Positions 1 to 61,920 of a stretch of 64,000 bases of DNA are shown here, piece by piece. Numbering within the stretch: position 1 is the stretch's first letter; each line of letters opens with the position of its first letter. Origin of the DNA: Bolinopsis microptera (Eukaryota; Ctenophora; Tentaculata; Lobata; Bolinopsidae); assembly GCF_026151205.1 (NCBI RefSeq), contig NC_087080.1, forward strand, positions 5,621,096-5,685,095, in the 5' to 3' direction. A program made the translations under genes and the position numbers. Under the pieces are notes generated by a model. That model ran no database searches, was not told where the DNA came from, and worked only from the letters and a program-made list of their open reading frames with translations.

Positions 1-1594
1 TGTGGCTGTGCTTGAAGAACCTCCATCTAGTAATAGCTTGGGCGCCAGTGCTTGAAAAAGAGATCAATGCTCTCAAACCACACCAAAACTTCAGACTGTG
101 GTTGACAGCTGAACCGCACCTGAAGTTCCCTCTAGTCCTACTTGAGAGCTCTCTAAAAGTCACATACGAGTCGCCTCCTGGCGTGAAAAAGAATCTGCTC
201 CGAACCTACGAGGCGTGGACTCCTCAGTTTATTGAGAAGGGACATCAACCTGTTAGGAGCCAGCCTTGTTCGCTCTTGCTTGGTTCCACGCTATCATCCA
301 GGAGAGAAGAAACTTCATTCCTCAGGGCTGGACTAAGTTCTACGAGTTCAGTAACGCTGATTTGAGGTCAGGTGCAGATATTATAGATAGACTCTGCACC
401 AGCACTGGCAGCATTCAATGGGACTTCATACACGGACTGTTTGAGAACGCAGTCTTCGGAGGCAGGGTAGATAACAACTACGATCTGGAGGTTCTCCGAG
501 CTTATCTTCACCAGTACTTTGACCGGGATGTACTGGGTGGGAAGGGAAGGAAGAAGCTTGCTGGTATCCTGGAACTCCCACTCTCAGTCAACCACAAAGA
601 CTTCGTGAAAGCAATCACAGCACTCCCTGAAACTGATACACCTGCTATGTTTAACCTACCCCAAAACGTAGACCGATCGCAACAGAGAAGCGTGGCTAAA
701 AGCGTGCTATCTCAGCTAGTTCTGGTTTCCCGACCTAACCTGGAGGACGAACAGTTCGACAAGGCCCGCTGGACCAAGGATCTGTCCCCATTCCTACACT
801 TATGGAAGAGATTAAACCAGGGCAGTGAACTTGTGAAGCTATCTTCAGATCAGATCCCGAACCCTGGGGAGAATGACCCACCTCTACTGGCCTTCCTTCT
901 TCTGGAGAGACAAGTTGCTATCAAACTCCTGCAACTAGTCCACACTGATTTGTCCAGAATCAGCAAGGTCATACGTGGAACTCTACTCCTGACAACCGAT
1001 GTGAAAGACAACGCAACAGCTCTTCTGAAGCACGAGGTTCCTGGTTCCTGGTGTAGGAAGTGGGAAGGACCTGTTGCTCCTATACACTGGCTACGATCTC
1101 TAGTTAGCAAGACTTTAGCGCTTGGAGGCTGGGTGGAGAGATGTCAGGCTGGTGCCTTGCTCACATCCCCTGCCGACTTATCAGAACTATTTAACCCTGC
1201 AGTGTTCCTGAATGCTTTAAGACAGGAATCAGCCCGGAGACTGAATCTACCGATCAACAGTTTAGAGTTTGTTTCTCACTGGGGACCCAGTTCGGGACTA
1301 AGCAAAGCTAAATGCCCGGTAACTATCGAGGGGTTGACTATTGAAGGGGCTCTGTTTGATGGTCACAAGTTGGTGGAATGTGCCCGAGACTCACCCTCCA
1401 ATTCTCCAATCTCCAATTGTAGTGTAGCTTGGGTACCAGCTGGACAGGGTGGCAATAAAGACAACCAGTTGGAGACACCAGTATATTACAACAGTTTGAG
1501 GGAGCAACAAGTTACATCTATCAGGATACCCTGCCCGGGATCACCAGCACTCTGGAAACTTAAATCTGTGGCGCTCATACTCAAGAATCAGTGA
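1..1594 (+). CDS. DYNC2H1: Cytoplasmic dynein-2 heavy chain, C-terminal end (partial, frameshifted)
   Basis: This is the motor heavy chain of retrograde intraflagellar transport. The window opens inside the coding region, in frame from base 3, and the block ends in the dynein C-terminal domain. Recognisable stretches are KNLHLV, FRLWLTAEPH, YESPPGVKKNLLRTYE, ERRNFIPQGWTKFYEFS, KVIRGT, FLNALRQE and the terminal LILKNQ, all in the order and spacing of DYNC2H1. The frame changes at about 261-265. Frame 3 reads through KGHQPVRSQ, and homology then resumes one base out of step with LFALAWFHA, as if one base were missing. The stop is TGA at 1592-1594 and an AATAAA lies near 1805. About 1.6 kb is without introns, unlike every other conserved gene here, so a retrocopy or an assembly indel are both possible. 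The family call is secure; whether the gene is functional is not. Confidence 0.93.
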
Positions 1595-2189: not shown

Positions 2190-4492
2190 CTAAATGTCCT
2201 CATCCTCTTCTCGGAGCCTCTTCACTCCTTGCAGATCAGCTGGTGTTTCTGGTATCTCAACACCAGTAGTATCCTCCAACAAGAACCATGTCCCTACTGC
2301 AGCCAGCACAGCACTTCCAGCAAAAATCGCAAGCACGATCCTGCGATCCAGTACGTTGTAAAGAAGACTGAGGTAAGGGCCGAGAAAGGAGCCAATTCTT
2401 GCAACTCCGGAACACGAACTCAATATCATGCCTCGGTGGGAGGTTGGGGACAGCTCAACCGTGTACAGGAACACTGTGATAAACTCGGCCCCGATAAATA
2501 TGATAGCTATGAGACAAGCCACTTGCCGGAGGTGCCATGTTGAAGACAGCGGAACGTCAATCATGGCAATCCCGAAACAGATTGCAATACCAAGACACAC
2601 CAGCATCTGTGTTTTCTTTCTTCCTGTTGCACCAATTAGAGCGAAACTTGTGGTACAAGCTACAACCTCGGAAATGCATGCGAACCCTTGACTTGCCATT
2701 ATGTTCTTGCCCATTTTGTGCCACCCGAAGCTGAGCCCGTAGTAAAATAGTGAGACCATGAACCAGCATATCATCAGAAAGAGCGTCCTCCTCAACATCA
2801 CTGGGTATATGATGAAATCTTTCATTTGTTTTAGAAGCCCCTCACTCTTACCTTTCTGTTCAACCTCTCTCTGGAGAACATTACTTTGGAGCGGAGGTGT
2901 GTTGTAGAATTTTGCCATCTTGTTCAGAATCTTCAAAGCCTGTTCCTCTTTGTCTTTGTAAACTAAGAATCTTGGTGACTCAGGGCAAATCAGAAGTTGT
3001 ATGTAGAAAAGGATTGAGATAATGGCTATAATCCCGATGTTGTACCTCCAGTTAGTAACCATGTAGGAGATGAAAATAAGGATTCCAGTACCACTAGGCC
3101 AGGTGATTGACAGTAGGGTGTTGGAAAGATTTCTCAGTCGGAGAGGAGTGAACTCCATTACCCACACATAATGTCCCGTTACGAAACTTAGCATGCCGAG
3201 ACCCTGCATTATCCTTAAGCCACACAAGGTCTGTATGTTTCCTGCGAATGCCATGCCGATGGTTGCAGAGACTGCAATCAAACCAGCCGCTAGTGTAACC
3301 TTCTTCCTCCCGAACATCTCGTATAAAGTAGAACTCCCTATCAACCCCACGAAACCACCTATAAAGTAAAAACTGTTGACATTGGAATTTTGGGATTCTG
3401 TGCCGCAGTAAATTCCAAAGTCAACAGCATAACTGGAGCGTTTTGGTGTCCAGATAAAGTCGACATCAGCTTTAAGTTTGTTGGTACACATAGTATCTCT
3501 GGTGTAAAATGTGTTGTTTTCTCCAGTGTGGTTCTGGAGAAGGGAAAAACACTGTTCTGAGGAGCACTCCCAGTCCGTGTACGGTATGTAGCCTGAAGAA
3601 AGTTTAACATTATCGACCATAGATGTATTTATGATCATAATTTATGCGATATTAAAATAAGACGGACGAAAATGTTAATTTTATGCTAAAAACTAAAATG
3701 TTCCCCAACATGATCATCTTGAAAGATAATATTGTATAATTATAATTATAAATAATAGAAAGCCTTTGAGCCTTACCAGTGAAGACCGGCAAATAGCACA
3801 TCATGGAAGCGGTTGATTTAGAAACCAAAAACATCAGGAAGAGAAATCCAACGTATCGCCCTGTAGATGTGCCTACCGTCCTGAGGAGAAAGTTAACCTC
3901 TCAGTAGATTAGATTTTTTTAGATTTGAAAAATTTTCAAAACGGTATTTACAAATCAACAGGATTATAAAACATAAAAATAAAAACCGCTTTGTCGGCAA
4001 ATGCCAGGGCCCTAACAATCCACTCAAAAAATTCAAAACAGGACCCAGAAGCTTGTAAGCCACTGGTCAAAAACAAAGTGAAATCTAATTAAATAAAGAT
4101 TTTGTTCAAAAATCAAATAAAATCAAAATTACGCGACCAAAATTCAAAAACTCTCGTAAATATGAAAATCTTAGTATCAATCAATATCCATGATCAGAAT
4201 AAATGAGGAAAAACGCGAAAATCACATACATTACTGTATTACAACAGATGTCAAAAATTGTTATTATTATTAACAAGTACTGCATTTATCACCTCAATTT
4301 AGTACCGCACAATGATAATGCGGTCCGCATTATCATTGTTTTGAAATTAATTGCCCAATCAGTGTGGTTAAAAATGTTTTCTAACCTGTCAACCAATTCA
4401 TCCATTGAAAGTTTCTCTGGAGACAGATTTTCACTGCCTTCATCATCTTCTTTCATCGATAATGGTTTAGATTCTTCCGTCTTATCGTTCAT
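2190..4492 (-). CDS. SLC22-type organic ion transporter (MFS), three exons
   Basis: Twelve-helix plasma-membrane carrier of the SLC22 (OCT/OAT/OCTN) branch of the major facilitator superfamily. Exons, in transcript order, are 4492-4386, 3880-3777 and 3592-2190, joined in phases 2 and 1, giving about 536 residues. Exon 1 starts at the ATG at 4492 and is a hydrophilic N-terminus ending MDELVDR, matching the family's short N-terminus before helix 1. Exon 2 carries helix 1 (GRYVGFLFLMFLV). Exon 3 opens with a cysteine- and N-glycosylation-rich loop, then shows GRKK after helix 2, the SLC22 signature PESPRFLV, and VELSPTSHRG with a following R-IGSFLGP in the second half. The substrate cannot be told. 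An acceptor further upstream in exon 3 is ruled out because there is no AG before 3593 in frame. It ends acidic (REEDEDI). Confidence 0.88.
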
Positions 4493-8390: not shown

Positions 8391-35637
<27,247 letters not shown>

Positions 35638-38148: not shown

Positions 38149-38656
38149 GTAGAAATTGTAAAGATCTTTAATTTTATACTAAACTAGAAAACCCGTGGTC
38201 ACAGGGAGGAAGCTAATAGTATTCTATTTATTTGGCAGTCAGTTTAAATTGCATCAAAAAATATCCTACACAACCGAAGATACAGCCGATTATAATGTTG
38301 CTCGCACTAAACACAATTTAGTATCAACAAAACCGATAAAAATGCTGGTCTTACAATCTTTGCACGTGCACGTGCTTGTAACAACCCTCGTTACCATGGT
38401 TACTTTGCAACCTTTTGCTTTTTACCTAATTTGCACGTGGGCAGTCGTACAGACATTATTATACCTAAATCTTTGAATTATAGTATAGATTATTGATGTT
38501 TTATAACGTTTTAGAGGGATGTAATTTGTAAGCTGGATATTTAAAATTATAAGTCTGTTGGAAATTAAAGTTTTTGATCTTTACTATTTATTGTTAATAA
38601 AATGCTCATTTTAGCCAGTTATTTTAAGATTTTCATCATCATCATCATGACATTGC

Positions 38657-39196
38657 TTACCGATCTTCATAATCAGGATTTGCTGGCAATTCAAACACAG
38701 TGCCTTCATTTCCCATAAAACCATTATTCTTTATACCTCGAAGAAACTCCATGTATTCACCGGGCAAATTATTCTCCATAGCTCCCTTAAGAATAATACT
38801 ATGATACACTCCACTGGGAACTGGATCCAATTCCAGCCCTTTAACCAAATGATACGTTAAAACAGAAAGTTTCTCCGATTCTATAGTTGTAACTTCTTTG
38901 TCTTCCAGTCGCTGGTAAACATATGGGACTCCTTCTTGTTTATCAAGAGATGGAAGATGCTTAACATCAATTTCCCATACAACTCCCCAGACCTGTGATC
39001 CTTTTTGAGGTTTAATAGTTGCAGTTGCTCCACCCCATCTTTTGGAAAAATGCCCAAAACTGAGCTTGTAGTCATCCAATCGAGCAATAGAAACTTTCTT
39101 AGCAGATGGATTGTTTATGTGAATTCGTTCAGAAAACAAATTGCTTCCATATCCAAAATAAAGGAAAGCACCTACACCAGGTATTTTGATCGACAT
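38657..39196 (-). CDS. GGCT: Gamma-glutamylcyclotransferase
   Basis: Cytosolic enzyme of glutathione turnover that converts gamma-glutamyl amino acids to 5-oxoproline and a free amino acid. The coding block is 179 residues from the ATG at 39196, close to the usual length. It shows the substrate-binding YGSNL near residue 15 (in FLYFGYGSNL), then RLDDYKLSFGHFSKRWGG, and VWGVVWEI, the usual order for this fold; the catalytic glutamate is probably in LDKQEGV. The open frame extends upstream to 39355, but an acceptor-like TTTAG at about 39215 suggests a spliced 5' leader, so I use the internal ATG. The stop TAA lies within GGTAAGC, which also reads as a splice donor, so the true C-terminus could continue in another exon. 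Confidence 0.9.
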   Translation of the reverse strand: MSIKIPGVGAFLYFGYGSNLFSERIHINNPSAKKVSIARLDDYKLSFGHFSKRWGGATATIKPQKGSQVWGVVWEIDVKHLPSLDKQEGVPYVYQRLEDKEVTTIESEKLSVLTYHLVKGLELDPVPSGVYHSIILKGAMENNLPGEYMEFLRGIKNNGFMGNEGTVFELPANPDYEDR

Positions 39197-39459
39197 ATTA
39201 TCCAGATTTTTGCCTAAATAGATAATTAACCATGTTAATGTTTTTAAAAATTTAAAAAAAGAAGGGGGACCCCCAACCCATGTAGCTGAGACACTGTAGC
39301 TGAGACACAACAGCAAGTAGACCAAGGTGGCTCTTGTTTGTGGAAGGTGAATCAACTACCTGCCGAAGTGGTGGGTTGGTAGTCCCCCCTGGAATCATTT
39401 TGTCTGTAAAATTGTACACAATATAAAAATTAGAATAAATCATCTATAAAATTTACATA

Positions 39460-49165: not shown

Positions 49166-50006
49166 TTTATATGGAAGTTGATATAATTTCTCCTTAGGGT
49201 TAGGGTTTCAGTATATGCTTTTGTTAGGGATTGGATTAGGGTTAAGTTTATGATCAGATTAGAGGGTAAGGTTTTGAACACGAACAGTCGTTCAGGGCCA
49301 GCTAGAGAACAGGTTGAAAAAGTCACCTGACAGTTGAGTGTAGAGTGATTAATCATCATCCCGACTGCAGAGTGTAAATCATCATCCAAAATGATTGGAT
49401 TGAGCCAAATTGTAATGCATTGTAATTTGCCATTAAAATGACACTTGTCCTGAAACGATAGAAGCTCTAGCTTCTGAGATATCAAGCGTAACAATTTTAT
49501 TCATTATGTGGGATCAGATGATTGGGTTGACACTAGATCGTGCAGGAAGCCCAAATGGTCACCCAATCAATTTTGGTAACGATTTCAACAAAATGTTTGA
49601 TAACTTTGTCATTTTAACTATGTTTGACACCTAATTTTTTATATCATTTGCCATATCTTCCACACTGCCATATGTAAAATTGAATTTTCTAGCATGTTCC
49701 ACAGAACAGGCATAATAAGCTATTTAATGTTGAAAGGTTTTGCCTCCAAAAATCGACTATATTGACTCAGACAGTTTTGAAATTGATATCGAAAGGTAAC
49801 ATTCAGTGAAAAAATGTAAATTTTTCACATTTTTGAATCATATAATATTTAACAACTTGCAACTGTAAGTTTTTCTAAACTCCCTGGCCTCTTCCGAGGG
49901 GCAAATGGCTTATGTAATATTTGAACGATACTTTAATATTAAATCATTTAATAGCAATTTAGGAAATGATAATAAATAAATAACATCAGTTTAGTACCAA
50001 ACGAAG
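49166..50006. other. DNALI1 upstream region
   Basis: Includes degenerate TTAGGG-like units (49195-49250, plus strand). No gene recognised. The DNALI1 promoter presumably lies near 49950-50006. Confidence 0.4.
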
Positions 50007-51381
50007 ATGACTCCCACAAATACCTCTCTTGTGAAATATGACAATCCAAAGCTTGTGAGTCGAAGTACTGATGCCAAAGCACAGAGAAAGCAAAAAAGTC
50101 CACAACAATCACCAGCACCTGGTGTACCAGGTATACTGAAATTTGAATTATTTACTGAAATTTATTGATTTATGAGGCAGCATGATAAGATTGTGATTCA
50201 CTCGCAGTAACAGTTAAATACTGACTATTTGATTGAGCTCAATATCTGTTACCATTCTATTGTCTATGTACATTAATTTGTGAATTCGAAAGGGAGCACG
50301 AGAGATGGCAAATTGCCACCATTGGAGGTGAAGAATCAAGCAGAAGATATTTTGAACTCAATTCTACCCCCAAGAGAGTGGACTGAAAGTGGGCAGCTCT
50401 GGGTTCAACAGGTTGATAAATAAAGTGTGATTAATTGAAAAGGCTTATATTATACTATGAATCATCTTGAGCTTTCGTTAATACCATTTTGTTAGTTAAT
50501 GATAGATTCAGACCTCCTGTCAATGTACCTTAACTAATCTAGCTCTTGTATTAAAGCTTGAAAATCAAACTTAAATTAACGTTGTTCTCTGCCACCTATA
50601 GGTATCAAGCACTCCTGCCACAAGATTGGATGTTGTTAACCTACAAGAACAGTTAGATATTCGTCTGCAGCAGAGACAGGCCAGAGAAACTGGTATTTGC
50701 CCTGTCCGCAGAGAGCTTTACTCACAGGTATTTGATGATCCGTAAACTAGGTGTGTGAAAAGAGAATTTCAAACTGTTTAACATCTCAATTAATATTTTT
50801 TAAATCTCTAACAATCACTGTAATTGTGAATATTTCTAACACACAACTGGCAACTCTTTTAGTGTTTTGATGAGCTGATAAGACAAGTAACTATCTCCTG
50901 CGCTGAGCGTGGACTTCTGCTCCTTCGTGTGCGAGATGAAATCAGGATGACGATAGCTGCATACCAAACACTCTATGAGAGCAGTGTCGCATTTGGCATG
51001 CGCAAGGCTCTCCAGGCTGAACAAGGTCCGATCATCTGCATACTTTATACCCTTTTCTCATCAGTTTTCATCGATTATTAGTGTATAGAATTGAACATTA
51101 ATATACAATATACATTTTTGTAAGCTAAACTTTTTAACACGTGAAATGTAACAGGTAAGACTGATATGCAGAGGAAGATTGAGGAACTTGAGGAGGAAAA
51201 GAAAGATCTGGAACGTCAAGTAAACGAGTTGAAGTCCAAATGCGATGCTATCGAGAAGAGAGAAGCAGAGAGGCGAGTTGTTGAAGAGAAGAAACATGCA
51301 GAGGAGATACAGTTCTTGAAGAGGACCAACCAGCAGCTGAAGACACAGCTAGAGGGAATCATCCAGCCAAGCAAGAAATAA
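50007..51381 (+). CDS. DNALI1: Axonemal dynein light intermediate chain p28
   Basis: Inner-arm dynein subunit of motile cilia. Exons 50007-50130, 50293-50411, 50602-50727, 50863-51025 and 51155-51381 join in matching phases (1, 0, 0, 1) and give about 252 residues, the usual size. The start is MTPTNTSLVKYDNPKLVSR. The middle has EDILNSILPPREWTESGQLW, then QRQARETGICPVRRELYSQ and CFDELIRQVTISCAERGLLL. The last exon is a long coiled coil (RKIEELEEEKKDLERQVNEL) ending FLKRTNQQLK...GIIQPSKK. These blocks are highly conserved in this family. The next gene starts 500 bp downstream on the same strand. Confidence 0.97.
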
Positions 51382-51884
51382 ACTCTAGAGACGAGGATTT
51401 TAGTTTGAGTAGATCAAAACTCGAATGTTATACATATCTGTACATAGTTTTCATTAAAAGGTTCCAGTTATCTATAGTATTGAATTGTAAAGGTTGTCAG
51501 AATGTTCTGTCGGTGCTCTGAACCATTCCCTAGGGTAACCTTGTAATATTATTTATTGATTCCAAACGCAAACTTAGACCTTTGTCAGCAGGTATGATAA
51601 TTTGTGCAACTGGGACCTTACATACTGGGACGTTATAATACTGAAACAAGTTCTTGCTTTTGATAAAAATAACTTTGTATATCTTCCTTTCAGTTTGCTG
51701 TTTTCATTCTTTAATGAGCTTCTTAACTCCACAATTGATGATCTTAAAATCCTTCTCGCTTTAAAATCGCAGTGAGAGATACAAATCGTGATCAACAACA
51801 TAAATCTAATCATAGAAATTTCATACTTAGAAATGCTGAAAACTTGCTTCATGAATTGACTGCCAGCAGAATAACACTACCATC

Positions 51885-54800
51885 ATGGTCGAAGGAGGAA
51901 ATGACGACGGAAACATTAAACCATATCATGCTAGATTTTTAGCACGGATCCTCAGGTGTTTAAGACTTTATGATTTTTCAACAATTATTGATTTCCTAGC
52001 AATAAAAGCCTAAAATATAGATTAATGCAGTATCACTTTTGTTAGACTAAAAATGTGGAACCGACATCACAAACCCTAAATGAATCTAAAATAATGCCAA
52101 AATAGTAACACAGGCAATAATATTACCAGGTCGAGTCAGTTCACTGTAGGTATAGACAAGAAGCAATGTAATTTAACTCCAGTTGTCCTTGACACCAGAA
52201 AATACCAAGCTGTCTTCAGTGAAGAACGTACCTCCTCTATTTACGAGGTTTGTTAACTTCTGCATCTTTATATTACATCCTGGGTACATCCTGCTTCAGT
52301 ACCTGTCCTTACTACTAGCTAAAGAGCACATCTAAAATACTCAGTTTTGTGTACTGCAAGATAACGGCGGTCTTGTTCCAGGTCCCAGACTGGGAGTTGC
52401 TACACGCCATAGTTGGGTTATACGACAGTTACCTCCCTGAAATAACACCTGAAGTGTTGTACAACACCCTGACATGTCGATCTTCTCTCACTCTCGTCTT
52501 TCTTAAAGAACCTGAAGGTATTTCTAAAGTAAATGGGGAATTGACAACTACAGAACATTTACTGACTACTCAATTAATTCTTCTTAAATTATTGACTGTT
52601 TTAAATAAACCACTTGCACTTTTTGATCGTAAAATTTGAAACAATATGTGCAAGACTGGTTTATTTGATTTACTTTTTAGATGTATTGAAAGAACGAGAC
52701 AGGGACGGTCCAAAAGAGCAGAAAGAAATTCCAAAACCCCAGAAAAAGGAAGGAGTAAAAGCAGAAGAAAGTAAGGATAAGAATAAGGAGGAAAAGGAGG
52801 AGGAGAGTGAGGATGAAGAGAGAATATTCACAGGAGTTTTTAGTGACGATGAGACAGATGATGAAGACAGCAGGTGGGTTTTAAGTACAATCCTCAGGGT
52901 CACATGACTATTGCTAAAGTATTGTCGGTATTGAACTACTCACTGAAACTTAAATGGTGGAGCTGTATCCACTTTAAAACATAATTAAATAATGTACGTG
53001 GCTGATAACATTACGTCAACAGTGAAGAAGAAACAGAAGATGACGAACACTACGCTGCAAGTGTTGAGGAATATTTGGAGCAGGTTGAGAAGAGAAGAAA
53101 ACTCAGGGAAGAAAACCACTTAGAGTGAGTAAAATGTAAATACTGATCTCATTAATAAATAACAAAATAGGTTTGGAAATATACCGCATTTACCGAACAA
53201 GTAAATAAGACAGCCCCTTTAAGATAACATACTTTATACTCTGCTGCTTAATTAACTTCACCAAAATCACCAAATTTAGAAAAAGAACACCTGAAATATT
53301 TTCAATCCAAGTCACGCATCTTCTGAAACTATGCTCCTTGACGTCATACCATTTTCTCTCGAGTCTGCTGCTGAGTGGCCTCCAGCTGAAATTGTAGTTG
53401 GACTATAAAGCTGGTTTGTTTGTGTGCTCGGATATTTTCTTGTTGCCACGTAATCCGATCGACTGAGTACTAAGCTTGGAGAATTCCTGGATAACGATTT
53501 ATTCCGCCTGCGAAAAATTCGACACAAAAATCGTCTCATATCCTTCTTCCTGAACAAATACACGAACGGATTCAACGCTGAGTTCATGGGAATAGCTGCA
53601 GTAACGACAACGTGTCTAAATAGAACAGATATAGTTTCTTTTCCAAGCACAAAATTGAACAGCACCACCACATACAGTAGATTGAAGAAACCAAAAAAGG
53701 TTGAGAGGATAAGAATTGTGCCTGTTGCTTGCCGACTGAGGTCTGTCGAACAAGGTCCGTCTGGAGAGTGGTTAGAAATTTTTCGTTTCAGAAGTTTCCA
53801 GATCGTCATCAAATTCGCGCTCAGGACGACAGTTAAATCAAGAATTAAAGAAATGAGGAGGATGTAGTTGTAAACATCGACAAACTGTATGAGTCTGTCT
53901 CCTTGAACCACCAAAACATAGTACCATGATAGTCCCTCTTTTATTACATTGTAAGACAAGAATGCCGCAAAGGATATAATTATGAGCTTAGTGTTGGGAT
54001 TGTAGAAAGGGAAGTAGGTTGAAACAGACCGAGCGACCGTTAACAGTGTCGTCACAAATCCAGTGCATTCTACAAACATGAAGAAGTTCAAGTGAAAGAA
54101 ACTCTGACCTATTTTGTTGACTTGCCAGTAATTGAAAGTCAGGTAGAATGTTGCAAAAAGACAAACGAGAAGATCTAGAATATTCAGGAGAGCAAGGAGT
54201 CTTTCTCCGAGTTTCTTGCTCTGATGAGTGACGAAATAGGACAGTGAGATAACGTTGGAGACTGTTCCAATGGCACTGATGCTGATAGAAATTAATATCA
54301 TTACTTTTAGCTCGGTTTTAGTAAGATATGTTTCGGTAACGGAAACTGCACTGTCTGAATGGTTGGTCGGGTATCCTTCGAAAAGCTCAGTGGTGGCCAT
54401 GTCTTGATAGCAAAGTATGTAATGCTCAGCAACAGAAGGTTCTGACTCGGCTAACAAATATCAAATGTTCTCAAACAAGTGTCGAAACAAGGTATTGGTC
54501 ACGTTAACTGATCGATATACCATATATATCATGAAATGAGTCTAACAGCTGTGCGAGATTTCTGTCAGGCGTCGGCGCATAAATATTGTAGTATGTGTGT
54601 ACCACTATTATATATGTGGGATTCATGAAAACCTAAGAGCAGCGATATATAGACGTCCCAGAATGACGACCATCTGGTTTTCATTAGATAAAGTCAGATT
54701 GATTGACCTGTGATATGGGCATGAAACAGCTGGTGCATTGCTCACCCCCAAAAAAGTGTGTTAATTCTAACACGACAGAAACATCACGTGTATGCATTAT

Positions 54801-57800
54801 ACGGTGTTTTAGTTAATAATAATATGGCTAACAAAAATACTGTGCGAATTGCTCAAAAATCATTGTTATTGGGACCCTGAGAAAGATGAGACCCTGAGAG
54901 TGGTGCAGTGGTTCCCTGAGAGGAGTGCAGTGGTTCCCTGAGAGGAGTGCAGTGGTTCCCTGAGAGGAGTGCAGTGGTTCCCTGAGATGAGTGCAGTGGT
55001 TCCCTGAGAGTGGTGCAGTGGTTCTCTGAGAGGAGTGCAGTGGTTCTCTGAGAGGAGTGCAGTGGTTTCCTGAGAGGAGTGCAGTGGTTCCCTGAGAGGA
55101 GTGCAGTGGTTCTCTGAGAGGAGTGCAGTGGTTCTCTGAGAGGAGTGCAGTGGTTCCCTGAGAGGAGTGCAGTGGTTCCCTGAGAGGAGTGCAGTGGTTC
55201 CCTGAGAGGAGTGCAGTGGTTCCCTGAGAGGAGTGCAGTGGTTCCCTGAGAGGGGTGGGACCCAGATTTCAGTTCCAACATGTCACCCATATCTAAGGAA
55301 GCATCTCATCAGTGACATGGCCGCACCCAAAAAATCTGTTTCTGAACTGGACTTATTGTGGCATCCAGATGGCTAGCAAGATTAGTTTAAACAACGTCAA
55401 AAATACTAAAATACCGACTTTAACGAAAAAATTAATTTCTCTAACTCCATCCTTCTCCCCAGTCCAGCCAGTATTGGTGCAGAGTCCTTGTTGGTCGCAG
55501 CAGCCACCTTCAAGCGTGTTCACAACACGGAGGACTCTCCTCGCCGCGACAAGGAACGGATCATCCAGCTAGCACTGCTCGCTGTGAGGATAAGGTTCCG
55601 GAAACTGGGTGTTGGCAGACAGCTCCTTAATGTGAGATATCTATTGTCGCGTTCGTTGAGTCAAAGTCGTTTTATTTTGATCACTATTCTTAAAGAAAAA
55701 TAAAATAAAAAAAAAAGTTACAGTTATTTAATTGAGAAGCTGGTAAGTATACTAATGATAAAATTTCAGTTCGTACGTAACCCAATTGTGGTAGGAGAGT
55801 ACGATGCTTTAGTGTCGTATGTTGATCCCGGTGCCACAGGATTCTTCGTCAGAAATGGGTTCTCAAGTGACCTCATTCTTAATCATCGCTTCAGGTAGTG
55901 CCTCACTGCTCACCTCAGCGTCAAGTCTATTTTTCTGCTGCAAATTGATCGATCAGACGTGGTCAAGTGTCAAAAGTCAAAACACTTTTTTCTCCCCCCC
56001 ATCCCCAGCCATTATTAAATTTATTTCTCCTCAGTGACTTGGTGGATCATTGGGATAATTCTACGCTGATGAGCTACCTTCCGCCTTACTCCGGTAATAT
56101 TTTATTTGTTACCAAAATTTAGTTGTAAGACTGAAAACTGCACTTCTCCTTCATGTCAAACCTAAAAACAGCAAATACGAATCCGTTGAAAATTAGAAGT
56201 TAATTGGATCTTTATGATCACTCTTTCTCCATTCTTACCCAAGAAAGTTATCTTAATCTTCTACTTACCTTGACTGATCCCCACAGAGTGTCTATCATCG
56301 GGTACGGTATCACTGCTGCGCGAGATGAGCTCAAGTCTCGGAGATGACATAAAGCGGTGGCGCAGCACGAGCGTGGAGGCATACCAGACGCAGCTCAGCT
56401 GTTTGGAACGCATGAGACACGAGATAATGTTGCTAAGGACTACCGTATCTTCTCAGGTCAGTGTTATTCGATGCTATTTATTATTACTCTGAAGTTTTGT
56501 GATAGTTCCTGTTTGAATTTCAGAGCCGATCGAAAATATTGCGCTGTGAAAAGCTGCCTCGTAGATTATTTTATGGTCGTAAAATTTTTAAGAATTTTGG
56601 TCGTATAATTTTTTGCCATGCCCATATTTTTCGTGTTTAATGAAATATATTGCGATCAAGTATGGTTGTGGAAAGCTTGCTTGCAAGATCAGAATAAATT
56701 AAACAAAATAGTAAGCTTGATGCATGTTATTCGTTACAAATAAAGAGTAAGCAGCTTGATTTTCAAAAGATCAATAATCATTATTCGTTCATAATGAATG
56801 CAATGTATGCCTGTTATGCTACATTGCCTACATATTAATATGAATATTATAATTATGCAGCTGCATTGCAATTTTAAAACCGTACATGATGAAAAATGGT
56901 GTTTAGGAAACGACAATGAATTCACTGACGAATGAGATTGATAGGTTAAGACTGAGCAAAGGGGTCTGTGAGCGGGAGTTCAGAGAATACAGAGCACAGG
57001 TTTGGAACTATTTTAAATTTCTATGCACAAATTTGAGAAGCCCATTGCATTCTATACATACAGATCGAAGCAATTCCATTCTTCATACGTAGATTGTACA
57101 TTTCGGTTCAATGATGCGAATTTCACGTAAACGCTGTACACTTATTTTTGATCATTGACAATAACAAGTAATTAGCTTATCACTTACACAGGTGCGAGCC
57201 ATGTTGAGTAGACTCAAGAACGGTAAAGAGGACTTGGAATCAGCCGAGAGCGAAATCATGAGTCTCTCCTTAGTGGGAAATAAAGATAGTCTTGTGAATG
57301 GGCATGTGTCAGAAAATGTTGCAGTAACGGTAGGTTACGTCGAAAAAAGTACCACATATAAATGAATAAAGTACCACATCTAAATTGCTCCACGGTTTCA
57401 TTTACAAATTAACATTAAATTACTTTGATAAGTAAGTTTGGAATTTATTTCTTTATTGCAGTTTTGTTACGTTTCGATAAGTAATTAAAGCTGTCTTATC
57501 TATATCATATCGCTACAATTTAAATTTCCTTTTTTATTGTTTTATTATGATTATTAGTTACCATTATTTCTCTCCATGTTGAGCGCTCATTATCTTTGAC
57601 ATATCTCTCAGATCGGCGAGGAAGAATTTAGCGATCTAGAGGATGAAATAAGATCAGCCATATGTGCTGTACCTTCCTATAAGTCGATCAGAATAACCTC
57701 AATTGAAAAGGTATTTTAAGTTTTCCTGGAAATTAACAGTTTAAGCTTTTAGTAATCCATTCATTTTATCTTCATTGCTAGAATTGGATCTTGAAAGTAA

Positions 57801-59672
57801 TGTTTTTATGCAATATTTTGCGTTTAATTTTAAATGTGATCCGTTCATCAGCAAAACGCAGAAAAGTCAGCATTGCTTCGAAATGTGTACAAAGCGCGGT
57901 GCAATGCACTACGTGACCCCAACATGACCATGAAGCTCTACTACTGTGGTGGCAAAGGTGGCACATTGCACAGGGTGCTAAAAGAGGGGTTCCAACCCAA
58001 GGATATGGTGGTTGGAGATTTCGGGGTGGGCATGTATTTCACCCAAAATCCTGTCAGAGCAATGCAGTATTCTGAGGTCGGCTAAATTTTTTGCTGGACG
58101 TTTTCTGTACATTGGATCTAGATTTAATACCCAACGTTCGCGTTGGTTAGATATTGAAATTTCATGATTCAGATATTTGAAGTATAGTTGGTAGTAGATT
58201 ACACTATTTTGTATTTCAGCCTGGGCTGCTATTGCAATGCGAAGTTGGGATCGGTAATGCAGAATCTGTACTTAAAATGGACCAAACCAGGTGACCTCCC
58301 CTATAGCTTTACAATTATATTTATCGTCTAATTATTGAATACTAAACAAGCTCTCAACCAGTGATCTGTTGACTGGCCACATCATTCTTCGATGTTCTTC
58401 TAAATCATTCCTCTAATCGGGTTAAGGAATCTCTGGCTTGAAATAAAGTCCAGAAGTCCTAAAACTAATTTCGCCTCCATCAAAACCCTAGCAACGTAAA
58501 ATCCCGGACTGCATTTGTACAAGACCACTTTTGGAAAATTTGCCATTTAAACTGGTCCGGAAATAGTGTTTTCATTACCTTGCTCGGGAATATTATAGTG
58601 GGTTAATTTATGACTGGGAAAATTAATGAACGGGAAAAATATGGCGGAATTTTTCAAAACCCACCAAGCATCAAAACGTATTACTATTAGTTTACCTTAC
58701 TCGGAAACATTATAGTGGGTTAATTTATGACTGGGAAAATTAATGACCGGGAAAAATATGGCGGAATTTTCCAAAACCCACCACTTTATCCCAGTCATAA
58801 TATTCCCGAGTAAGGTATGTTTTGAGGATAAATTAAGCGATATGGCAATATTTTAATTACAAAGGGTCTACTTATATATTTCACGGAACGCGCGAAAGTT
58901 GATATACTACCGCAACTTTTTTTGTTCAGCAGTCAGTGCAACAGAATTTTACTGCGCGGTGTGTACAATTCTTCGTTGCTAAGTGACGAGCACATCCGTA
59001 GCAACGAAAGACATTTCAGCTAGGGACAAAGGTCCTCTTGTTATGTCGTCAATAAACCTCGCAGATATTTTGGCGGTTGCAAGATTAATCATGGTCCTTA
59101 ACCCAATTTATCACTCTTATTTGATTGTTATGCAGCATGAATTGTTTCGATTCCTGTTTCAATGTTCTTGACATACGTTGCATGCCACATTTCGCGCGCG
59201 AAGCGCGCGCCGCCGAAGGCGGAAATAATATCTCTGATATTTGTGATACGTAACATGTATCAACAATGTTCAAAGATACGCGTGAGGTACATACTAATAA
59301 AGTTGTTTCCCAGAAATCGACCACCAGTGGGATTTGACTCGATATTGACGGGAGAAAGAGACGTTGATCATATAGGGATATACAGTCATCAGAGGCACAA
59401 TGAACTGCAATATTTAGTTTTCGATAGTAAGCAGGTAAGCACAAAGCAGTGCAATGTGAAACTGAAAAAGAATACAACTACAAGATCTATCAGTCGTTAG
59501 TCGTACATATACAATATATTTTAATAGGGGTTGTGTTGTTCACATATTTACAGATAACCTGACTAAACAGGAAACTAGAGATAACGAGGATTTCATTTTA
59601 AATTTCCATTATGAACTAAATAATCCCCATTTTCAGGCAGTACCTCTCTACCTGATTTATTTCACTGTTTGA
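51885..59672 (+). CDS. GNAT acetyltransferase - PARP-type domain fusion protein, 14 exons
   Basis: Exons: 51885-51955, 52130-52247, 52382-52517, 52681-52873, 53023-53124, 55463-55631, 55770-55894, 56035-56093, 56287-56456, 56907-56999, 57192-57329, 57612-57710, 57852-58076, 58220-58290, 59314-59434 and 59637-59672 (16 pieces; the last two pairs are short). All junction phases agree, giving about 641 residues. Residues 1-206 include a lysine/glutamate-rich insert (exons 4-5). Exon 6 has SLLVAAATFKR, LALLAVRIRFRKLGVGRQLL with the acetyl-CoA loop pattern R-x-x-G-x-G, and exon 7 the GNAT-typical GATGFFVRNGF. Residues 320-490 are predicted helical or coiled and charged. From residue 492 comes a PARP-like fold: VLKEGF, GDFGVGMYF, LLLQCEVGIGN, GFDSI and LQYLVFDSKQAVPLYLIYF. 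The function is unknown. Exons 1-5 could be a separate gene, but GNAT needs them and the phases fit. Confidence 0.75.
53312..54400 (-). CDS. Rhodopsin-type (class A) GPCR, orphan, nested in an intron
   Basis: Single-exon coding block of 362 residues from the ATG at 54400 (MATTELFEGY). It has an N-terminal glycosylation site (NHS) and seven hydrophobic segments. Helix 1 contains IGTVSNVISLSYF, helix 2 LLNILDLLVC (the sodium-site Asp), helix 3 ends LTVARSVSTYF where DRY is expected, and helix 7 has AAIPMNSALNPFVYLF followed by basic helix 8 (RKKDMRRFLCRIFRRR). The canonical D-R-Y is thus A-R-S. The serine-rich C-tail is about 75 residues. The frame is open back to 54457, where TTAG may be an acceptor, so a short upstream exon is possible. 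It lies wholly inside intron 5 of the GNAT-PARP gene on the opposite strand. Confidence 0.88.
   Translation of the reverse strand: MATTELFEGYPTNHSDSAVSVTETYLTKTELKVMILISISISAIGTVSNVISLSYFVTHQSKKLGERLLALLNILDLLVCLFATFYLTFNYWQVNKIGQSFFHLNFFMFVECTGFVTTLLTVARSVSTYFPFYNPNTKLIIISFAAFLSYNVIKEGLSWYYVLVVQGDRLIQFVDVYNYILLISLILDLTVVLSANLMTIWKLLKRKISNHSPDGPCSTDLSRQATGTILILSTFFGFFNLLYVVVLFNFVLGKETISVLFRHVVVTAAIPMNSALNPFVYLFRKKDMRRFLCRIFRRRNKSLSRNSPSLVLSRSDYVATRKYPSTQTNQLYSPTTISAGGHSAADSRENGMTSRSIVSEDA
54880..55255. repeat. 22-bp minisatellite
   Basis: About 17 copies of CCTGAGAGGAGTGCAGTGGT followed by TC, with few changes. It lies upstream of the nested receptor and 200 bp before exon 6 of the GNAT-PARP gene. 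The minus-strand 145-codon frame is an artefact. Confidence 0.95.
58565..58815. repeat. Duplicated segment with inverted ends in a GNAT-PARP intron
   Basis: A unit of about 95 bp (GGAATATTATAGTGGGTTAA ... AAAACCCACCA) occurs twice in tandem, at about 58588 and 58704. TTACCTTACTCGGAA upstream is mirrored by TTCCCGAGTAAGGTA at 58803. It looks like a small foldback element with an internal duplication. Confidence 0.75.
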
Positions 59673-60304
59673 AATTCCGGATTACAATTGCTTCATTTTA
59701 ATGACGCAATTGTGCCAACGAATTAGGAGCTAAAGAACTAAACTTTGAAGCTATAGCTATTATCTATGTTGACGTAGATAAAGAATAATCTGTAAATGGT
59801 AAAATATCATTCTCGAAATGCGGGTTTCTAGACTGTTCTGCATCATGAACGACATGAAAATCTGGTTATGTTTTCGACAATCATAATCCTAGATTTTAGT
59901 ACTGATGATGTTCCTGGACAATATTGATTACCTTATATATTCTTAAGGGTGCATTTGCATTGGCAGTTTCTGATATCTTTTCTATAACGTTTTTAGCTGG
60001 TTATGGCTTATACGTAATTTTAGATTTACTTTCTTTTTTATAGGAATTATTCTTATGAAGCTTTGTGAGATAATGTTCTTGGTTTATTTTATTTGAAGAT
60101 GTATAATTTTGATTATATGAAATACTTTCTTTGCCTTATTGATAGAACAGAATCATAGTTGCGATTTCATCAACGCGAATTTTCTGTTATACTTACATTC
60201 GACACTTTTCGACGTATTCTAATTCTAACGACCCATCTATCTCAATGGCGATTCCGTCATCATTCTGAACTGCTCGAGAAATTGATAAAAAACTTCTGTA
60301 TAGG

Positions 60305-61463
60305 ATGGCGGAGGTTCATATTATTGGTAACCTAGATGGCGGTGAAGGATTTTCCTCCCCAAATTTGTCATGCAAATGGTGTTTTGAAACTGGAGGAGCT
60401 TGGAGACTCTTAGAAGGAGTCAAAGACGGTCAAACTCAGGTATTTCAACATTGTCATAATTTCTCAGCTTTCTCACATTTTCTTTAGATTCTAATATATA
60501 TCTCCTTTCTAATATATATCTCCATATATCTCCATCAAGATCGGTAGTTCCCGCAATCAAACAACGAATGAGTTTTTAAAAGTTCCAATTAAGTTCCAAT
60601 TTAAGATGATTTAAGAATTCCTCATCTATATTCTATGAGCGTATAAATGCACTAATTAATTCGATTCATTGACAGTGTACTTTAACTTATCCGATGCTAC
60701 CATCCACACTGTCAATATAAGCTAATCTATTATTGTTTCTGTTAGGTTGATCATCCTATAGATGAGGGAATAGCACACTGGTCTCATCCCATAGATCTAC
60801 ACTACGCTATAAAGGGGATCCAGGGCTGGCCCAAACTCTCACTCCAGGTTTCTAAGCCTATACTGTATTTAAAGCGATGCCAACATGACGTAATAATATG
60901 ATTGTTTAGTAATACTTCTAGGTCCCTGTTATCACCAATAAATCAACATGATTGGTCCAACATGTCAGGTATACAGTGAAGATATGTACGGCAGAACCCA
61001 ACTAGTTGGGTATGGTTTTGTACATTTACCCACCTCTCCTGGATTTCACAAGATTGAGTGTCCTACTTGGCAACTGGCAGGTTAGTAGTCTATATTAAGT
61101 GGTCGATGTTTCAGAGTATTTGTCTTTCATAGTGATACCTGGTGATGACAGAATTTCCTTTTTTTTGGATAACTGGATTGAACTTAATCATTTTAATGCC
61201 TATTCTTATGAGATTTGAGCTTTTTTCATATAAATTGTTAAATTGAAACATCAGAGGGACTGGTTTTAACTGTTTTTTGCTCAGGAAGTGCGATGGATCA
61301 AGTACAATCATATTTCGTTGGCAGTGGGCCTCAGCTTATTAATGATGACGTCATAGCATCTGGCTCAGACCGATATAGATTACAGACAATCGCCTCAGGG
61401 ACTGTTTACCTTTCTTTATTTCTTGTGACAAGGAACTTTAACAAGTTTGGTATAGAATCGTGA
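60305..61463 (+). CDS. B9D2: B9 domain-containing protein 2
   Basis: Component of the ciliary transition-zone (MKS) complex. Exons 60305-60439, 60746-60847, 60969-61080 and 61285-61463 join in phases 0, 0 and 1 and encode 175 residues, the family's usual size. Conserved blocks are MAEVHIIG at the start, [17 protein letters not shown] then [65 protein letters not shown] and the end [16 protein letters not shown]...NFNKFGIES. This covers the B9 (C2-like) domain completely. An AATAAA lies near 61903. It follows the GNAT-PARP stop by 630 bp. Confidence 0.97.
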
Positions 61464-61920
61464 AATTTTCATAAGTATAACTCTTAAAGTGGAAATGCTG
61501 GGAAAATTTGCTTTTTATAGCTGGAAGTGCTGGGAATATTTGCTATTACACAGAGAATAGAGATTGATGTTGTATTTTGTATATGCTGACGGATTTTTAT
61601 TGACCTACTCTGTAATCATCAGAAGTTTTCCATTTTTACCTGACGTCTCAGTTATTTTGACCAAATTTAATGCTGACAAATTTATTAATCTTATTTTTGT
61701 ACGCTTCTTGTGATGATATTTGAATATTTAACGTTTAAGTGATATTCGTATTATTTTGCACAATCAAAGATTTAAAAACGTTTCATAATGATACAATTCA
61801 AATAGTTAAGTGTACCAGCCACTTTTACATGTATTTTACAATTTGTACTAGCAGTATATATCACCATAATTGTATATAGAGTCTACATTTCATATCATTG
61901 AAAATAAAAAATAATAATAA

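Follow-up and report, generated by a model that had tools for sequence, protein, structure and literature searches.

The stretch of the Bolinopsis microptera genome analyzed here (contig NC_087080.1, 64 kb in full length, called the window below) raises the question of what is encoded at positions 51885-59672 of its forward strand, where exons of a GNAT acetyltransferase lie upstream of exons of a poly(ADP-ribose) polymerase (PARP) domain, and whether a chain carrying both folds would still work as an enzyme. The explanation we favor, at a probability of roughly 0.55 on the sequence evidence, is that the locus is one gene for one chain of 641 residues, in which a GCN5-type GNAT domain and a PARP domain, both divergent and joined by a probably helical linker, would form a double pseudoenzyme used for binding or scaffolding.

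The gene model was obtained by reading splice sites by eye over 50000-61500 and checking them by script, which gave 16 exons on the forward strand, from the ATG at 51885 to a stop codon that ends at 59672, as follows:

Exons 1-5, forward strand: 51885-51955, 52130-52247, 52382-52517, 52681-52873, 53023-53124
Exons 6-8, forward strand: 55463-55631, 55770-55894, 56035-56093
Exons 9-12, forward strand: 56287-56456, 56907-56999, 57192-57329, 57612-57710
Exons 13-16, forward strand: 57852-58076, 58220-58290, 59314-59434, 59637-59672

These exons splice in phase to 1926 nucleotides including the stop, with GT-AG borders in 15 of 15 introns and no internal stop. An in-frame stop lies 33 nucleotides 5' of the ATG, and reading on past the donor meets a stop after 2-120 nucleotides for each of exons 1-15. 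The initial annotation, which had proposed phase-consistent exons for approximately 641 residues at the same coordinates, is borne out by this model, as are the motifs and regions that it named: RKLGVG, GFFVRNGF, a charged insert, a stretch of helical appearance, and, at the C-terminus, a PARP domain (a PF00644 match). Searches of the animal's own genome covered 264.65 Mb in 232 contigs; with the 641-residue protein as query, 21 candidates were scored and all 15 matches at E ≤ 0.01 fell inside the gene (exons 1-15), and no second copy was found at that threshold. The NCBIfam profiles gave no match to the predicted protein up to E 1. That the gene might simply be the GCN5 or a canonical PARP of this genome was rejected, as a separate GCN5 (L009) and separate PARPs (L001-L003) are present at other loci. 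The parts of the predicted protein are distributed over the exons as follows:

52130..52517 (exons 2-3), forward strand: first (N-terminal) GNAT half, located for the most part in exon 3, from the yeast GCN5 alignment and a GCN5 profile
52681..53124 (exons 4-5), forward strand: acidic low-complexity insert inside the GNAT domain, from its composition and its position between the GNAT halves
55463..56093 (exons 6-8), forward strand: second (C-terminal) GNAT half, including the acetyl-coenzyme A (acetyl-CoA) loop, from phmmer and alignment
56287..57710 (exons 9-12), forward strand: linker of residues 326-491, probably helical or coiled, by eye and from Pfam matches below cut-off
57852..58076 (exon 13), forward strand: first half of the PARP domain with the motifs C-G-G and Y-F-T, from PF00644 and alignment
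58220..58290 (exon 14), forward strand: middle part of the PARP domain, from splice reading, PF00644, and PDB comparison
59314..59672 (exons 15-16), forward strand: end of the PARP domain, with E-L-Q where PARPs have x-x-E, followed by YLIYF, from alignments

Judged by sequence comparison, the middle of the predicted protein is a divergent GCN5-type GNAT domain that is split by a long acidic loop. In a phmmer search against the PDB, the best match of the GNAT part was Tetrahymena GCN5 (1.4e-5), with human KAT2A next (0.006) and others behind. When the insert (about residues 110-206, ~97 residues, 39% aspartate plus glutamate) was removed, hhalign with a three-sequence GCN5 profile gave 93.7% and P 1.9e-7 over 141 columns that take in both halves, at 26% identity, and yeast GCN5 aligned at E 0.002 with query positions 6-149 of 156, which correspond to exon 3 together with exons 6-8. 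With a GCN5 profile built from two sequences, exon 3 alone scored 2.9 bits, a value reached by none of 300 shuffles (maximum 1.4), and exons 2-3 together scored 0.5 bits with the same profile. The acetyl-CoA loop RKLGVG (residues 253-258, 55599-55616) is intact and fits (Q/R)xxGxG/A, which we take to be the consensus. The apparent presence of the GNAT fold on both sides of intron 5 (2338 nucleotides, between exons 5 and 6) argues for one transcript.

Several results weigh against this assignment or against its two-block form. Acetyltransf_7 stays below its Pfam cut-off of 27, with 18.1 bits in the 641-residue protein, 22.0 on exons 6-8, and 20.1 without the insert, and Acetyltransf_10 and Acetyltransf_1 are also under theirs; the domain is thus below the Pfam cut-off yet found by comparison with GCN5 (phmmer, hhalign), which is how the GNAT call of the initial annotation came through the profile searches. 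The N-terminal half is weak by itself, with 1.9% and P 0.026 in hhalign, and in the uncut protein it reaches -2.0 bits; the C-terminal half scores 20.3 bits without it and 18.7 bits when the two are joined, and Tetrahymena GCN5, which scores better than yeast GCN5, aligns with the C-terminal half only.

Relative to GCN5/PCAF (KAT2), the protein shares the order of the two GNAT halves, the acetyl-CoA loop, a DxxAxGxFxxxGF stretch, and an alignable end, DNSTLM here against YEGGTLM or YDGGTLM in GCN5, but it differs in its low identity, in a glutamine at the place of the catalytic glutamate, and in the acidic insert. The Pfam scan of the 641-residue protein up to E 10, whose filters drop most matches above 0.1, listed no bromodomain, whereas the GCN5 of the same genome has a bromodomain-like tail by eye.

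The PARP domain that the initial annotation had proposed is recognized by its Pfam profile: PF00644 scores 33.4 bits in the 641-residue protein, where the match begins at residue 462, and 37.8 bits on exons 13-16, over a cut-off of 26.7 (E 4e-8 for the C-terminus). Its nearest PDB relatives are PARP4 (5e-4, query 40-111 of 150) and the tankyrases (from 0.07 on), with which it shares the FGxGxYF and YLI motifs; unlike PARP catalytic domains, it has C-Y-Q for H-Y-E and shorter loops. A six-frame search of the genome with PF00644 gave 18 matches at E ≤ 1e-3, none of which is an exon of this gene, so the domain is divergent and detectable only after splicing. At a nominal database size of 1000, the PARP part is only weakly similar to the PARPs tested from its own genome (best L002, 0.034), and human tankyrase-1 reached 1.9e-4 in the same run. 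For the linker before it, Pfam gave ten matches at E values of up to 10, all under cut-off, several of them to coiled-coil families. The Pfam scan of the full protein listed no WGR, ankyrin, macro, or WWE domain.

The active sites decide how far the initial annotation can be followed in its suggestion that one chain may write two modifications. The positions of the catalytic glutamate of GCN5 and of the PARP His-Tyr-Glu triad were taken by us as established knowledge, and the PARP1 and Tetrahymena GCN5 sequences used in the alignments were verified residue by residue against PDB chains, that of tankyrase-1 by length and score only. In the MAFFT alignments, Gln242 (55566-55568) sits at the catalytic glutamate of GCN5 (yeast E173). 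In the PARP part, Cys523 (57945-57947) stands at the histidine, Tyr553 (58035-58037) at the tyrosine, and Gln622 (59408-59410) at the glutamate, with Glu620 (59402-59404) two residues earlier. The triad is accordingly Cys-Tyr-Gln in place of His-Tyr-Glu, with the tyrosine kept and the histidine lost; hhalign concurs on the tyrosine and glutamine, its local match ending short of the histidine position. The motifs RKLGVG, FGVGMYF, and YLIYF are kept. The other members of both families that were aligned from this genome look ordinary at these sites, as H-Y-E is present in three of three aligned PARPs (L001, L002, L003) and the catalytic glutamate is kept in GCN5 (L009). Eight loci were fetched of the 18 PF00644 matches; L004, L006, and L008 are exons at a single locus, and L005 and L007 have histidine and tyrosine by eye, a reading of the first two triad positions only.

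Published substitutions give these changes different weights. Yeast GCN5 E173Q, the same exchange as in our GNAT half, is described as catalytically dead in a passage of PMC4398931. According to PMC7615817, PARP1 with the E988Q exchange still automodifies with one ADP-ribose, so that the glutamine alone would not abolish activity and the lost histidine is the stronger sign. In Table 1 of PMC7955679, which covers 27 human ADP-ribosyltransferase (ART)-like domains, PARP13 (Y-Y-V) and TASOR (L-Y-Q) are marked inactive, and C-Y-Q occurs in none of the 27. Since both the histidine and the glutamate are replaced, at least the half with the PARP fold is probably no normal NAD-dependent enzyme, and the proposal that the protein writes two modifications, with glutamate to glutamine at the GCN5 site and histidine and glutamate to cysteine and glutamine at the PARP site, is not supported: on these residues, dual writing of acetyl and ADP-ribose marks is unlikely, and the two-domain protein may instead have a reading or scaffold role.

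Part of the same literature pulls the other way, and it bears on the possibility that the protein is an active enzyme, bifunctional or with a single function, whose chemistry is altered. In such an enzyme, water or another residue would act as the GNAT base and the PARP half would mono-ADP-ribosylate through Cys-Tyr-Gln, perhaps aided by Glu620 or by a partner. For some GNATs, catalysis proceeds although no general base has been identified (PMC8072286), and the single ADP-ribose added by PARP1 E988Q is a point of the same kind. Table 1 of PMC7955679 marks as mono-active PARP9 (Q-Y-T), which is described as needing its partner, and ART3 (K-L-V) and ART4 (G-S-E), which are of another ART class, so a missing histidine is no proof of inactivity; PARP9/DTX3L and HPF1 are the precedents of partner help cited in that source. 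The activity of TASOR2, TEX15, NEURL4, and LRRC9 is listed in the table as not determined, and for TASOR2, TEX15, and LRRC9 this also counts against reading our triad as dead. Furthermore, the protein retains Tyr553 and an intact acetyl-CoA loop. A caveat to the double-pseudoenzyme reading is that the substitutions were read in one genome, to which they could be peculiar. Against an active enzyme stand the joint change of both sites, the exchange of the PARP histidine for cysteine, and the absence of C-Y-Q from the human table, and we consider it possible though rather unlikely. The lost residues would mean nothing, on the other hand, if the gene were a decaying fusion on its way to a pseudogene, for which the alteration of both catalytic sites and the weak scores of both domains for their families could be quoted; with 16 exons free of stops, frameshifts, and broken splice sites, and with the RKLGVG, FGVGMYF, and YLIYF motifs preserved, decay is very improbable.

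A further alternative concerns the gene rather than the enzyme, as a short transcript could end behind exon 5 and a separate one start from 55463, leaving no fusion at all or a fusion in one isoform only. Exon 5 is directly followed by an in-frame TGA (53126) and an AATAAA (53154), intron 5 is long and has a receptor-like open frame on the opposite strand, and no AATAAA or ATTAAA was found from the final stop to 60937, leaving the full-length model with no canonical 3'-end signal nearby. AATAAA is frequent here, however, with 18 occurrences in the 12.1 kb scanned on the forward strand, and one beside a given stop is not rare. The GNAT fold appears to require both exon blocks (exons 2-3 and 6-8), exon 6 carries on the phase of exon 5, and exons 6 and 7 have no in-frame methionine, the first being in exon 8, so that a downstream start would lose most of the GNAT domain. 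Two transcripts are accordingly improbable, and the stronger version, in which exons 1-5 belong to one gene and exons 6-16 to another, unrelated one, was rejected because the GNAT fold appears to span both blocks and the phase is continuous.

Among animal proteins with divergent domains of the PARP type, PARP13 has zinc fingers. LRRC9 has leucine-rich repeats and TASOR a DUF3715 domain (PMC7955679). All three resemble it in having an animal ART/PARP-like domain without the histidine, the L-Y-Q of TASOR being close to C-Y-Q, and according to Table 1 of the same source, the Pfam PARP model misses LRRC9 and TASOR, whereas it detects the protein described here. No GNAT-PARP fusion was found among the matches listed in the Creative Commons-licensed full text of PubMed Central, a body of text distinct from subscription journals and supplements. 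The word "acetyltransferase" does not occur in the main text of PMC7955679 and occurs once in that of PMC10450202, naming a cloning vector; "GNAT" is absent from the main text of the PARP surveys PMC2964712 and PMC4245714. Relatives were searched with tblastn in viral, bacterial, and archaeal sequence, a scope that is uninformative on spread among animals: viral contigs gave none for the PARP part (two pattern-matched stretches) or the GNAT part (26 such stretches), and genome contigs gave none for the 641-residue protein (59 such stretches).

The surroundings of the gene were considered for the ciliary role that the initial annotation had thought worth testing. Both flanking genes that it had named were confirmed by Pfam, DNALI1 by PF10211 (E 2.8e-94) and B9D2 by PF07162 (E 8.2e-56). 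At 257-1594 on the forward strand lies the C-terminus of DYNC2H1, the heavy chain of cytoplasmic dynein 2 (best PDB match 6e-125), which makes three cilia genes in the 64-kb window. These neighbors are suggestive of a ciliary role for the fusion protein and are not evidence of function. The RFX X-box consensus, scanned over the window, gave one match at 38390 (three mismatches; 1.85 expected by chance) and none near the fusion gene.

Other features of the window were recorded as well. Intron 5 contains a 382-codon open frame at 53312-54460 on the reverse strand that resembles a divergent seven-transmembrane (7TM) receptor (PDB sphingosine-1-phosphate receptor 3 at 1.9e-7) and matches no Pfam family up to E 10, together with a minisatellite at 54892-55257 made of 16.6 copies of a 22-base unit. 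A single open frame of 1188 codons at 27443-31009 (forward strand) combines low-density lipoprotein (LDL)-receptor class A repeats with a rhodopsin-type 7TM domain, an open frame at 38657-39355 (reverse strand) is like gamma-glutamyl cyclotransferase (GGACT/AIG2_2), and 2190-3641 (reverse strand) encodes a transporter of the major facilitator superfamily type in a single frame (Sugar_tr, MFS_1). Several reverse-strand frames between about 10000 and 36000 (e.g., 10092-11105 and 34512-34781) resemble TMEM94 by eye, with no Pfam family at E 0.01 for frames 10092-10745 and 10746-11105. Rfam gave no match within the window.

Returning to the double pseudoenzyme, its GNAT half would probably still bind acetyl-CoA through the intact RKLGVG loop, with catalysis lost or much reduced, and its PARP half would probably not use NAD in the usual manner, so that the chain would no longer be an ordinary acetyltransferase or PARP. 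Retained acetyl-CoA binding, reduced catalysis, and unlikely normal use of NAD together point to a binding or scaffolding protein, in which the GNAT and PARP pair could act as an acetyl-CoA-responsive or constitutive adaptor and the acidic loop and linker could add further contact surfaces. A more speculative extension, for which we would claim only a small chance, is that the gene represents an unnamed animal family of GCN5-type and PARP-type double pseudoenzymes, both with a natural catalytic glutamate-to-glutamine exchange, that would not write marks on cilia or chromatin but read there either acetylation and ADP-ribosylation marks or the acetyl-CoA/NAD state.

To our knowledge, acetylation and ADP-ribosylation are handled by separate proteins in the animals studied. 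One chain with both folds, carrying the textbook dead-enzyme change at its GCN5 site and a matching loss in its PARP site, would offer a natural experiment on the roles that such folds have once catalysis is gone, and it may tie acetyl-CoA metabolism directly to that of NAD. As it comes from a comb jelly, the protein also bears on the inventions and losses at the base of the animals.

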